A stretch of 64,000 nucleotides of DNA from contig NZ_CP115921.1 of NCBI RefSeq assembly GCF_040412085.2, forward strand, positions 1,178,001 to 1,242,000. Reading direction: 5' to 3'. Positions 48,517 to 52,030 of the stretch are shown here, piece after piece. The position numbers were made by a program, and so were the translations under genes. The notes below the pieces were generated by a model. The model did not search any database. It saw only the letters and a list, made by a program, of their open reading frames with translations, and was not told the DNA's origin. Origin of the DNA: Vibrio sp. CB1-14 (lineage in GTDB: Bacteria; Pseudomonadota; Gammaproteobacteria; Enterobacterales; Vibrionaceae). How positions within the stretch are numbered: the first letter of the stretch is position 1; the number at the start of each line of letters is the position of its first letter.

Positions 48517-48724
48517 GGTAATTCCTGGTGACTCAGTGTGATTGGGATATTTGACACTGCAAGATATTCTGTTGCGCTGCTATAAGCGACTCAGCTATAG
48601 CTTAATGCTACTGAATTCTCACTCACTGAGACAGCTCTCTCAAAAGGTTGAGTTAGATTAAAGACATAGCTTCGAAGTGGTGATTATTATTCGCCAGTTC
48701 TATGGTTGTGAGTAGTTTTATTGC

Positions 48725-49522
48725 ATGTTCCCCAAGCGCACTTGGCAAAATCTGATCTTCATCTTTCTCTATACGCTGCTTATTGGTTGTGTTTATCAAG
48801 TACTCACGTTTCGTCAGGAGCTGAGCAGCAGCGCTGAGCAAATTCTTAGCAAAGTTGAGTTTCAACTATCAAAGATCGAAAGAGAGTTGAGAGCCGTTTA
48901 TCAACCGACGGATTGCAGCACTGAAGCGCAAAAGGTTCTGGCTCATCATGTGTTTCGAAGCATAGGCTTACGTGGACTCGCGGTTGGAACAGTGCAAAGC
49001 GGCGATGAGGAATCTTTTATCGCTTGTAGTAATTTTGGTCAGCACAAAGCTGCGGTTACGTCGACATTTTGGGATGCTAGATACAGCCGAGATGTGGCGT
49101 TTGCCAAAATCAAGCAGATTGAGTATCGACGCGATCCCTCCTATGCCTTAGCGATTATCAAAGACAATACCATTGTCCTCGGTGCTATTAACCCGCGCAT
49201 TATTCTTGGCTGGTGGATTGAACCATTTTTCCCGGAGACCAAGGCTGTCCTGTCTTTTAGTAATGGTGAAGCGTTGTTGTCTCGTGGTATCGATATTGCC
49301 GATGGTGATGGCATTGAAATGACGACCGATTCCGAGCGCTACCCAATACAGATTCGTGTGACGCAACCTATTACTGTGCTTTGGGGTAAGCTTTTAACCT
49401 TTATCGAGCGGCTAACGCTCGGCGGAGTATTGGTATTTGGTAGCCTGTTGCTGTTTGACGTTTATCGTCGTAGCACACGCAGAGAAAACCCTGAGCAAGA
49501 CTTTGAGGTGAGTCATGATTAA
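48725..49522 (+). CDS. CSS-motif periplasmic sensor-domain protein A (no EAL domain)
   Basis: 265 residues: N-terminal membrane helix (IFIFLYTLLIGCVYQVL), periplasmic domain, second helix near residue 225 (TLGGVLVFGSLLLFDVY) and a short charged tail. The periplasmic domain has two Cys (C64 in TDCSTE, C101 in CSNFG) and the segment INPRIILGWWIEPF. This is the pattern of the CSS domain that senses redox state on E. coli c-di-GMP phosphodiesterases, but no EAL domain follows. Its end overlaps the start of the next gene by eight bases. Type A is shared with the gene at 50466. Confidence 0.7.
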   Translation: MFPKRTWQNLIFIFLYTLLIGCVYQVLTFRQELSSSAEQILSKVEFQLSKIERELRAVYQPTDCSTEAQKVLAHHVFRSIGLRGLAVGTVQSGDEESFIACSNFGQHKAAVTSTFWDARYSRDVAFAKIKQIEYRRDPSYALAIIKDNTIVLGAINPRIILGWWIEPFFPETKAVLSFSNGEALLSRGIDIADGDGIEMTTDSERYPIQIRVTQPITVLWGKLLTFIERLTLGGVLVFGSLLLFDVYRRSTRRENPEQDFEVSHD

Positions 49523-50246
49523 GTGGCTGGTGGTGATGTCGCTATCGGCATTGGTGAGCCTAGTTGGTGCCTATTTCAGAATTACACATGAATTGGAGAC
49601 GAGTGCGATCGGCGCAACAGCAAGGGTGGATAGGGAGATAAAGAGTATTCTCAATGTTATCGACATGCTGCCAAGCGATCCCAATTGTGGTGATGAAGTG
49701 AAGCGAGAGTACGCCAATATTGCACATGAAAACGAGCGTATTCGTGCGGTGGGTTATATCTATGACACGGGCGAACAATGGCATGTTTGTAGCATGCTCG
49801 GGCGCCAACTTTCTAAGCTTAATTACTGGCAAGGCAGCAAAAAAGAGGGGGTGTTTATTGGACACTCATTGTTGACAGTACACTTCCCAGAAACTTCGTT
49901 TGTTGTATCCAAAGATAAAGGGAAGCAGAAAGCCTTCGCTTACGTCAATCCAAGAAGAGTGCTTGGTTACTGGATTGAACCAAGCCTTCATTATGCAAAT
50001 TACAGCCTGACGTTGGACTCGGACTGCGTGCCTTTTTACACACGTTCACCTTTGAGAATGCAAAGCATGTTGCTACAAACGGCGCATTCTAAGCACCATC
50101 CTTATTCCATTCAAGCGACGGCTTCGTTTGTCGATGTGTTGAAACGTAGTGGGATTTATTGGTTGCGCGTGATGTGTATAGTGGGTTTGGTTTGGATCAG
50201 TTATCGGCTGCTTAAAGGCTCTCTTCTTCAAGTGGTTGAAAAATAG
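49515..50246 (+). CDS. CSS-motif periplasmic sensor-domain protein B (no EAL domain)
   Basis: 243 residues: N-terminal helix (LVVMSLSALVSLVGAYF), periplasmic CSS-like domain with C58 (PNCGDE) and C92 (VCSMLG), the block EGVFIGHSLLTVHFPETSFVVS and YVNPRRVLGYWIEPS, then a C-terminal helix (IYWLRVMCIVGLVWISYRLL). No catalytic domain. It overlaps gene A, implying coupled translation and possibly a heteromeric complex. It pairs in sequence with the gene at 51245. Confidence 0.7.
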   Translation: MIKWLVVMSLSALVSLVGAYFRITHELETSAIGATARVDREIKSILNVIDMLPSDPNCGDEVKREYANIAHENERIRAVGYIYDTGEQWHVCSMLGRQLSKLNYWQGSKKEGVFIGHSLLTVHFPETSFVVSKDKGKQKAFAYVNPRRVLGYWIEPSLHYANYSLTLDSDCVPFYTRSPLRMQSMLLQTAHSKHHPYSIQATASFVDVLKRSGIYWLRVMCIVGLVWISYRLLKGSLLQVVEK

Positions 50247-50465
50247 CGAGTGCCATGTCGTATAAATACTTAGACTAAATGAGAATATTCCGTGATGGTT
50301 GTTTTACGTAATATTTATACAGTGTATATGTGGTTTTTATTTCATTTTAATTTTGAATGACGTCTCGCAATATATATAAACAATGTTTAGAAATTTGAGG
50401 TGGGATAAGGTTCGTATAAATTTGATGCTGTATAACAGTGAGGAAATTCAGCGCAAATTTATTCA

Positions 50466-51248
50466 ATGCAATTAAAACAGTCCTTCACCAATATTTTCTA
50501 TATTTTTCTCTACACGCTGCTGATTGGCTGTGTGTATCAGTTCTTTACGTTTCGCGAACAGGCTCATCAAGAAGCACAGCAAGTGCTAAGTGGTGTCGAG
50601 CGTCAGCTTACCCAAATCCAGTCAGAGCTGCATGTATTGTCTAACTATCTGTTTCCTTTAGCAGAGTGCGATAAATCGATGCAGACAGAGCTTGGTCATA
50701 CGGTTTTTCGCAGCGTTTCAATGCGCGGCCTTTTTGTTGGTACCAAGCAACCAGATCTTTATCAATTTTGCAGCAACCTAGGACCTACGAATCAGCCGCT
50801 GGATAATTCGTTTTGGAATGAAGCTCGAAAAGGGGATATTGGCTTTGCCAAGTTGCGCTCACCCACTCATGACGGTAATACTTCTTACGCGCTAGCACTT
50901 TATCGAGATGATAACGTCGCTATTGCAACGATTAACCCCACGGCGATATTGGGATGGTGGGTACAAGAAGCGCCTCAGGAAACTCATCGGATCCTTCACT
51001 TCTCAAACGACGAAACGCCACTTTTGCAGAAAAATAGCGCTTCATTTGGGGATTACAAAGCCACCAAAGAGTCGCTATTGTTTCCTATTTCGATTTCACT
51101 CTATAAAGATACTGCTCTATACAGGCAAGGAATCGTCACCTTTATCGTAAGGTTGTTGGTGGTGTTCGGAATGGTAGTGGGTGCCATTGCAATGATTGGC
51201 TTTCGTAAAAAGCAGGTGCAGCCTGAGAAGGTGCAGGAGCAAAAATGA
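50466..51248 (+). CDS. CSS-motif periplasmic sensor-domain protein A' (no EAL domain)
   Basis: 260 residues, paralogue of the gene at 48725: first helix FYIFLYTLLIGCVYQFF is nearly identical to that of A, then C68 (AECDKS), C102 (FCSNLG), TINPTAILGWWVQE and a C-terminal helix (LLVVFGMVVGAIAMIGF) with a basic tail. It overlaps the following gene by four bases (ATGA). Weak ribosome site before the ATG at 50466. Confidence 0.7.
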   Translation: MQLKQSFTNIFYIFLYTLLIGCVYQFFTFREQAHQEAQQVLSGVERQLTQIQSELHVLSNYLFPLAECDKSMQTELGHTVFRSVSMRGLFVGTKQPDLYQFCSNLGPTNQPLDNSFWNEARKGDIGFAKLRSPTHDGNTSYALALYRDDNVAIATINPTAILGWWVQEAPQETHRILHFSNDETPLLQKNSASFGDYKATKESLLFPISISLYKDTALYRQGIVTFIVRLLVVFGMVVGAIAMIGFRKKQVQPEKVQEQK

Positions 51249-52030
51249 GAGTTGTCATCTATTCACTGTTGCTAACGGTACTGCTCAGTGTTTTGAGTTA
51301 TATCTTTGCAACCGCCACCATTAAACAAGACATCGCCAACGAACTTGAGGCCAGTTTGACAAGCATCGATAGTAGGATTGAATCGACGCTGAATTTGGTG
51401 GTGTCTCTACCCAAGCATGAAGGGTGCGAATCAGAACATCGCCGATTCTACAATCGAAAGGCGTATATCGAAGAGGAAGTTCGAGCGCTCGGCTATGTAA
51501 GAAACCACACAACGGGCTGGTATGCGTGCAGCTTGTTTGGAGAAGTGTCATCAAACAAAAGCTATTGGGCTGGCAATACCAGTGAACAAGGTGTGTTTAT
51601 TGGTTGGTCTCTGCTTACGACATACTTCCCGGAGCCATCGTTTGTTGTTGCTCAGCAGGTAGGAGAAACCGAGTATTTTGCTTATATAAATCCGCGCAGA
51701 ATGTTGGGACACTGGTTAGAGAGCCCGCTTCGCGATTACTTTTATCAGGTGTATTTATTGGGAGAGTCACTGCCGCGTTATTCAAGTGAACACGTCAATA
51801 TCGATAACAGTTTTTGGTCTACTTTTGTTCTTAGCCATCGTGTTGTATCGCCACAATACCCTTATGAGTTAAAGGTATCGGTATCACGCAGTGCAGTATT
51901 GCTGAGAACGGCGACCTATACGTTAAGAATGCTATTGGCCTTTGGCGTCATTTGGTGGCTTCTCATCGTTGTAAGACGAGCATTAAAGCCCGTTGTCCAA
52001 CACCATTCTAGCTATGCTAACGACGATTGA
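51245..52030 (+). CDS. CSS-motif periplasmic sensor-domain protein B' (no EAL domain)
   Basis: 261 residues, paralogue of the gene at 49515: helix (IYSLLLTVLLSVLSYIF), C61 (EGCESE), C95 (ACSLFG), the shared block QGVFIGWSLLTTYFPEPSFVVA, YINPRRMLGHWLES and a C-terminal helix (LRMLLAFGVIWWLLIVV). Overlaps A' by four bases. Its 3' end overlaps the convergent LacI-type gene by 14 bases. Confidence 0.7.
   Translation: MRVVIYSLLLTVLLSVLSYIFATATIKQDIANELEASLTSIDSRIESTLNLVVSLPKHEGCESEHRRFYNRKAYIEEEVRALGYVRNHTTGWYACSLFGEVSSNKSYWAGNTSEQGVFIGWSLLTTYFPEPSFVVAQQVGETEYFAYINPRRMLGHWLESPLRDYFYQVYLLGESLPRYSSEHVNIDNSFWSTFVLSHRVVSPQYPYELKVSVSRSAVLLRTATYTLRMLLAFGVIWWLLIVVRRALKPVVQHHSSYANDD

Follow-up and report, generated by a model that had tools for sequence, protein, structure and literature searches.

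Conserved gene pairs for CSS-related, output-less sensor proteins of Cache type in Vibrio

In Escherichia coli PdeC, free thiols of the CSS sensor domain allow dimer formation and activation, as stated in the accessible part of PMC8846402. Output-less Cache sensors have a precedent in SMP_2 (PMC4822843, accessible in part), and stand-alone Cache modules are described for sCache_heme, with proposed redox-related roles (from the portion available of PMC12889525). In HmsCDE (accessible part of PMC8846402) and in YfiBNR, a membrane cyclase is controlled in trans by periplasmic proteins that respond to redox or envelope state. Here we analyze four consecutive genes, A, B, A′, and B′, in a stretch of 64,000 nucleotides of Vibrio sp. 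CB1-14 (contig NZ_CP115921.1, positions 1,178,001 to 1,242,000 of the forward strand; hereafter, the window). They form two copies of a two-gene cassette, A–B and A′–B′. The A–B cassette is real and conserved, and its products are best filed as a variant of the Cache-type sensors that is CSS-related, output-less, and paired.

These proteins (243–265 residues) share a layout in which about 185 residues form a periplasmic domain between a first and a second membrane helix, the latter followed by a short tail. In A, the helices lie at about residues 10–30 and 216–246, and the cysteine pair C64 and C101 falls within the periplasmic CSS-related double-Cache domain; the respective pairs are C58 and C92 in B, with the layout as in A by homology, and C61 and C95 in B′. 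The first-pass annotation, made from the sequence alone, had ascribed to all four proteins two flanking helices, two spaced cysteines, the second one within C-S-x-[FL]-G, and a block INPR-x2-LG-x-W. The cysteine pair and the C-S-x-[FL]-G motif are indeed present in all four (as C-S-[NML]-[FL]-G), whereas the block holds in the wider form [IV]NP[RT]-x2-LG-x-W, with Arg in three proteins and Thr in A′ (INPTAILGWW). Both flanking helices are seen in the AlphaFold models of A and B′, although in the hydropathy analysis (A, B, and B′; cut-off 1.6) the second helix of B is below the cut-off and is placed by homology. The same models of A and B′ have a predicted double-Cache fold, and dCache_1 (PF02743) is absent among the matches listed up to E 1 for the A and B proteins. 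The Pfam scan found no EAL domain in A, B, A′, or B′, in agreement with the annotation. Sequence and, for A and B′, predicted structure thus support the assignment of A and B as periplasmic double-Cache domains held between two helices, without a cytoplasmic output domain.

Proteins A and A′ are 36% identical, and B and B′ 33%, so that A indeed pairs with A′ and B with B′, as had been noted. In hhalign, the A and B profiles, each built on nine rows with relatives gathered from whole genomes, prove homologous with a probability of 99.8% (E 3.8e-29). The proposed likeness to the CSS sensor domain holds for families but not for single proteins: all four score below the Pfam cut-off, the best being A with 12.5 bits against a cut-off of 23 in a nearly full-length match to PF12792, while the family profiles align with the CSS sensor regions end to end. 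Taken literally, the refuting condition named in the first-pass annotation (no significant CSS profile match) therefore applies to the individual proteins, but not to the families. At E up to 1, PF12792 matches four of nine A-family sequences (best 2e-4) and two of nine B-family sequences (best 6.5e-3). Comparison with the sensor regions of CSS-EAL proteins yields a probability of 94.0 and E 1.4e-7 over 219 columns for the A profile, and 95.1 and 3.3e-8 over 215 columns for the B profile. The CSS-EAL set consisted of seven Vibrionaceae sensor regions picked by PF12792, independently of A or B; five of the twelve CSS-EAL loci were omitted from this alignment, as the start-codon finder returned no open reading frame (ORF) there. 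The negative control, four dCache regions of chemoreceptors, gave probabilities of 0.4 (A) and 1.8 (B).

The B profile also reaches EAL proteins directly. Among 329 Vibrionaceae genomes, 18 match, four of them outside any cassette, in ORFs of 492–534 residues; of these four, the ORFs of G183 and G285 (not those of G212 and G027) were domain-scanned, and both carry EAL, one of them also having both CSS models over the cut-off. A joint alignment of six A/B sequences, three CSS-EAL proteins, and the divergent EAL protein L097 (see below) has both cysteines and the Gly after the second one invariant, as well as Ser and Pro of an S-x-x-x-P motif that precedes the second helix in all ten rows. Within the seven CSS-EAL rows, the Ser is present in 7/7, the Pro in 4/7, and the Gly in 6/7. 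The second cysteine of the CSS-EAL rows lies in C-x-S-[LI]-x-G in five of seven, the distance from Cys to Gly being one residue longer than in A/B; C-x-S itself occurs at this site in six of seven rows and is absent from A, B, A′, and B′, whose motif is thus akin to that of the CSS-EAL proteins without being the same. Taken at the profile level, the sequence data support a relationship of the A and B families to the CSS sensor region of EAL proteins.

The cassette is present in 14 of the 329 Vibrionaceae genomes, that is, in 13 of 227 Vibrio and in G005, which belongs to another genus. Carriers include V. variabilis, V. maritimus (two strains), V. methylphosphonaticus, V. mediterranei, V. qingdaonensis, V. 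barjaei, V. hangzhouensis, V. madracius, and V. thalassae. The profile search in the 227 Vibrio genomes yielded 16 matching genomes, three solely via long non-cassette ORFs; a single-sequence search recovered 7 of 247. In an order-level sample of 345 genomes, the A profile matched three (two Vibrio carriers and, weakly, a 100-residue frame in another member of the Vibrionaceae) and none outside the Vibrionaceae. Twenty cassettes were found, and A directly precedes B in all 19 where A is visible, one of these A ORFs being a fragment; the twentieth has B at the contig start. Both cysteines are invariant in 19/19 A rows and 20/20 B rows. The recurrence of A–B in 14 genomes together with the conserved cysteines argues against a chance arrangement. 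Six genomes have two cassettes; in two of these assemblies, the draft genomes G275 and G326, the second-A ORF is shortened, and these two ORFs are included in the tree but not in the conservation tables, which use 17 of 19 A rows. The trees bear out the single duplication of a two-gene cassette suggested earlier and place it before the split of G276 from the lineage of the window.

Conservation is distributed differently in the two subunits. In A, the mean column identity is 0.71 for the first helix (residues 10–30) and 0.45 for the core; in B, 0.32 and 0.50, respectively. The same trend is observed for eight diverse rows (first helix of A 0.645 vs. core 0.37; first helix of B 0.211). The best-conserved 21-residue windows of A coincide with the first helix, which is matched by random columns in 5e-5 of draws, and N9, I13, Y16, T17, L19, G21, and Y24 are invariant in this stretch. 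The best windows of B are periplasmic, namely positions 115–135 of B′ (QGVFIGWSLLTTYFPEPSFVV) and the NPR block. Between A and A′, 16 of 21 first-helix residues are identical, with the proportions of nonsynonymous (pN) and synonymous (pS) differences equal to 0.12 and 0.67, while pN for the whole gene is 0.44; between B and B′, 4 of 19 are identical and pN is 0.55. Since the silent sites of the A/A′ helix are near saturation and the residues are kept, this identity is held by selection rather than by recent copying.

As the first helix is held by selection in A, and the periplasmic core in B, we read A as the coupling subunit and B as the signal-reading one. A and B would then be two subunits of an inner-membrane sensor built solely of input parts: B would read a signal via its periplasmic core, and A would pass it on by intramembrane contact of its first helix with a separate membrane protein, likely something common to both pairs. 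Because the helices of A and A′ are nearly the same while the sensor domains are at 36% identity, A–B and A′–B′ probably address one partner with signals that differ in kind or in tuning. By analogy with PdeC, a state-setting periplasmic disulfide is probably formed by the invariant cysteines; analogy would likewise make the partner an enzyme of cyclic di-GMP (c-di-GMP) metabolism and the sensor a redox switch. We hold this explanation as a whole tentatively, giving it somewhat less than an even chance. As to the partner, the most likely candidate, by analogy and still doubtful, is one of the membrane-bound GGDEF/EAL proteins of the genome itself. It is rather improbable that an input of c-di-GMP (or other) signaling has here been split off from its enzyme, with the two paralogous two-subunit sensors converging, via the helix of A, on one common enzyme in trans; if true, CSS-type sensing would be modular, with several redox inputs sharing one output.

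Several observations weigh against this two-subunit sensor. No partner was found for A–B; the EAL and GGDEF matches of this genome come no closer to the cassette than about 184 kb and about 49 kb, respectively. The cassette is rare, at 14 of 329 genomes. None of the four proteins has a Pfam or NCBIfam match over the cut-off; the profile link to CSS is based on alignments of 7–9 sequences, with two-profile E-values that lack a database calibration, and the models of A and B′ were built on nine sequences each. The conserved helix of A can also mean an insertion or quality-control signal, and the disulfide may be only structural.

Possible, though tentative as well, is a CSS-related sensor or accessory complex unrelated to c-di-GMP, which would serve, e.g., ligand or envelope sensing and steer a transporter, kinase, or chemoreceptor. 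The double-Cache fold is generic for ligand-binding receptors, and neither EAL nor GGDEF was matched in profile searches of the 64-kb window. Of 12 loci compared with the window, 11 have a gene for an EamA-type transporter in the same stretch, and nine have phosphotransferase system (PTS) genes there; in G005, the cassette is followed by a chemoreceptor gene on the opposite strand. On the other hand, the closest sequence relatives found are the EAL-linked CSS regions, and the cassette has moved within the locus. In the window, an AraC-type regulator is upstream of it, and a LacI-type regulator and PTS genes are downstream; the whole lineage of the window has LacI on one side and, on the other, AraC (G000, G274), transposase-like ORFs recognized by eye (G035, G326), or GGDEF genes (G275). 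Elsewhere, the cassette is flanked by the second PTS EIIC gene on one side and EamA2 on the other (G276, G201, G182, G277, G143), or it is adjacent to EamA2 (G196, G295). Because of this movement, the neighbors are not fixed partners. The same applies to genes of c-di-GMP turnover, for which linkage to the cassette had been proposed as a survey: EAL or GGDEF genes stand beside it in two of the 13 genomes read, and we do not use them as support. In G275 (V. maritimus JCM 19240; L084:6375–9150), the first A is immediately preceded, on its own strand, by two ORFs matching GGDEF/EAL and by a GGDEF gene, the flank of the cassette being rearranged; in G005, the genes directly upstream are two of GGDEF type and one for an arginase. 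None of the other Vibrio loci read has GGDEF/EAL ORFs like those of G275 next to the cassette.

It is quite unlikely that A and B are competitive inhibitors, i.e., truncated CSS domains that block full-length CSS-EAL proteins by entering into mixed dimers with them. The dimerization of PdeC through the free thiols of its CSS domain (PMC8846402, accessible part) favors such an activity, as does a divergent EAL protein of 529 residues on the third replicon (L097:1000–2589, G000:C3; EAL 198.6 bits, no CSS match up to E 0.1), whose CSS-like sensor region contains C-S-P-F-G, with the same short spacing as in A/B. However, close relatives of this sensor region occur in 5 of 227 Vibrio genomes, two of which are among the 13 Vibrio carriers of the cassette, as found by a single-sequence search that could miss distant forms; the L097 protein was therefore rejected as an obligate partner. 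PF12792 matches occur in one of seven carriers and in 135 of 240 other genomes, opposite to what inhibitors would predict (Fisher p 0.048, a contrast that is confounded by descent and takes two draws of 247 genomes as the same one), and two co-maintained subunits exceed what a blocker needs. This genome has 23 EAL and 40 GGDEF match rows in total; no further CSS-like EAL protein was found via PF12792 or the A profile, three of the 23 EAL regions having been read in sequence. At G000:C3:196839–197793, on the third replicon, a GGDEF-EAL frame seems to be interrupted, with the EAL match in two pieces, one of them with internal stops.

A similarly low probability is assigned to envelope proteins without a signaling role, in which the helix of A would be an insertion or stability signal and the cysteines a structural disulfide. 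The rate of change agrees with it, as the four genes evolve faster than their neighbors: compared with G035, at a similar pS of 0.15–0.33, pN is 0.026–0.038 for the four genes and 0.004–0.015 for six neighbors. Against this reading, such anchors need no residue-by-residue conservation, as the first helix of B demonstrates, and the predicted fold is that of sensors. Compared with G276, pN is 0.25–0.31 in the four genes and 0.004–0.032 in eight neighbors, and pS is 0.80–0.89 and 0.11–0.63, respectively; since pS of the cassette is elevated along with pN, the cassette may have been exchanged, or may be older than its surroundings, in this comparison. At the protein level, 36–45% of residues differ from G276 (L085) in the four genes, and 0–6% in the eight neighbors.

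Broken CSS-EAL phosphodiesterase genes, an outcome the first-pass annotation had itself raised, are very improbable and were rejected: lone CSS ORFs of other taxa do look similar (with an overlapping EAL ORF by Pfam in L051, and in L101 with an ORF reading as EAL by eye 11 bases behind), and the second-A ORFs of G275 and G326 are short, but the cassette genes are under strong purifying selection (ratio of nonsynonymous to synonymous rates, dN/dS, 0.058–0.185 in 16 of 23 comparisons, the other seven being saturated), the Cys pair and the A–B order are invariant, and in all 13 genomes read the last B is followed by a gene for LacI, EamA, or a chemoreceptor, never for EAL, with no adjacent EAL remnant.

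In L051:7075–9706 (G013), a CSS ORF of 240 residues (49.7 bits) is followed by the overlapping EAL ORF, a protoglobin ORF, and a GGDEF ORF; the cluster has the appearance of a CSS-EAL gene and a gene for a globin-coupled cyclase, each of them split. L101:673–2306 (G907) comprises a CSS-type sensor ORF and the EAL-like ORF; these are either the parts of one gene that was split or a two-gene arrangement of natural origin. A phage, plasmid, or defense origin of the cassette was also considered and rejected: none of the four proteins has a PHROG or PADLOC match up to E 0.1, and B′, the sole query in this search, has no plasmid or viral-contig relatives. Nor did B′, again as the sole query, retrieve solved-structure relatives by sequence.

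The coordinates of the cassette and of the elements upstream of it are given in Table 1. All four genes are intact, and 219 bases separate A–B from A′–B′. The positions, strand, ORFs, and overlaps reported earlier proved exact on recheck.

Table 1. Genes of the duplicated cassette and candidate upstream elements (positions in the window).
Feature	Position	Strand	Description
Gene A	48725..49522	+	265 aa
Gene B	49515..50246	+	243 aa; 8-base overlap with A
Gene A′	50466..51248	+	260 aa; paralogue of A
Gene B′	51245..52030	+	261 aa; paralogue of B; 4-base overlap with A′
Candidate operator TTCTCACTCACTGAGAC	48616..48632	+	inverted repeat TTCTCA-N5-TGAGAA, 1 mismatch; -109 to -93 of the A start codon
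Weak sigma-70-like promoter candidate	48661..48690	+	AAGACA, 18 nt, TATTAT

Ten of 13 first cassettes, among them five from close relatives, have the inverted repeat (box) at -106 to -111, with one or two mismatches; for several rows, the internal ATG aligned with A was used as the start. This position is kept though much of the surrounding DNA cannot be aligned. In G143, a second, equally good site is at -257. No box precedes the first A in G196, G295, or G005, nor does one precede A′ in either of the two genomes tested. In the window, the motif has three matches with up to two mismatches against 3.42 expected, i.e., the chance level. The genome contains 44 sites against 15 for the reversed control; of 29 sites in 20 chosen stretches, 18 are inside ORFs, and five of them in one giant repetitive ORF, adhesin-like by eye, whose repeats inflate the genome-wide excess. 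Hence, conservation of position alone stands as support for the box as a candidate operator. The TATNAT element of the promoter candidate is conserved in aligned relatives, although promoter-like sites are no commoner than in shuffles (6 vs. 6.9). An FNR-like site with two mismatches recurs in five close relatives including the window and is absent in other lineages, and CpxR-like sites are scattered. A resemblance of the box to the SypG site was not confirmed. One site-bearing upstream region in this genome belongs to a gene that we take to be gbpA. In V. cholerae, VpsR has no significant role for gbpA, according to the accessible part of PMC4545359. Regulation by VpsR was considered and not retained: the half-sites of the box resemble the VpsR site given for craA of V. 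cholerae, TTTCACAATTGAGA (PMC6890996, accessible in part), but the spacing, as we read it, is different, 2 there and 5 here; the papers on VpsT and others yielded no VpsR consensus.

No title or abstract on stand-alone CSS proteins was found in the literature searches, subscription journals being largely beyond reach of the search. In YfiBNR and HmsCDE, the regulators differ in fold from A and B, and their genes lie together with that of the enzyme; unlike in these systems, no enzyme is linked to the A–B cassette. SMP_2 is nearest to DUF2222, the sensor of BarA/GacS type, and is confined to proteobacteria, as given in the available part of PMC4822843, whereas the A and B proteins give no SMP_2 match among those listed up to E 1. 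Like A and B, sCache_heme modules are stand-alone; they differ in having a single Cache and the covalent c-type heme motif CXXCH (PMC12889525, portion available), present in none of the four window proteins. The nearest counterpart is the CSS sensor domain of EAL phosphodiesterases such as PdeC (PF12792), which resembles A and B in the periplasmic location between two helices, the two conserved cysteines, and the end-to-end alignment of profiles. Compared with CSS-EAL proteins, A and B have no EAL domain, are two different proteins encoded as a gene pair, stay singly below the Pfam cut-off, and have C-S-x-[FL]-G and the additional NP-x3-LG-x-W block. This conserved, enzyme-free, paired relative shows that fusion of the sensor with an enzyme is not obligatory, and it suggests that the CSS sensor type belongs to the double-Cache fold. 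The A–B pair may also serve as a natural experiment, with signal reading (B) set apart from coupling (the first helix of A); the prediction is that whatever binds A should bind A′ too.

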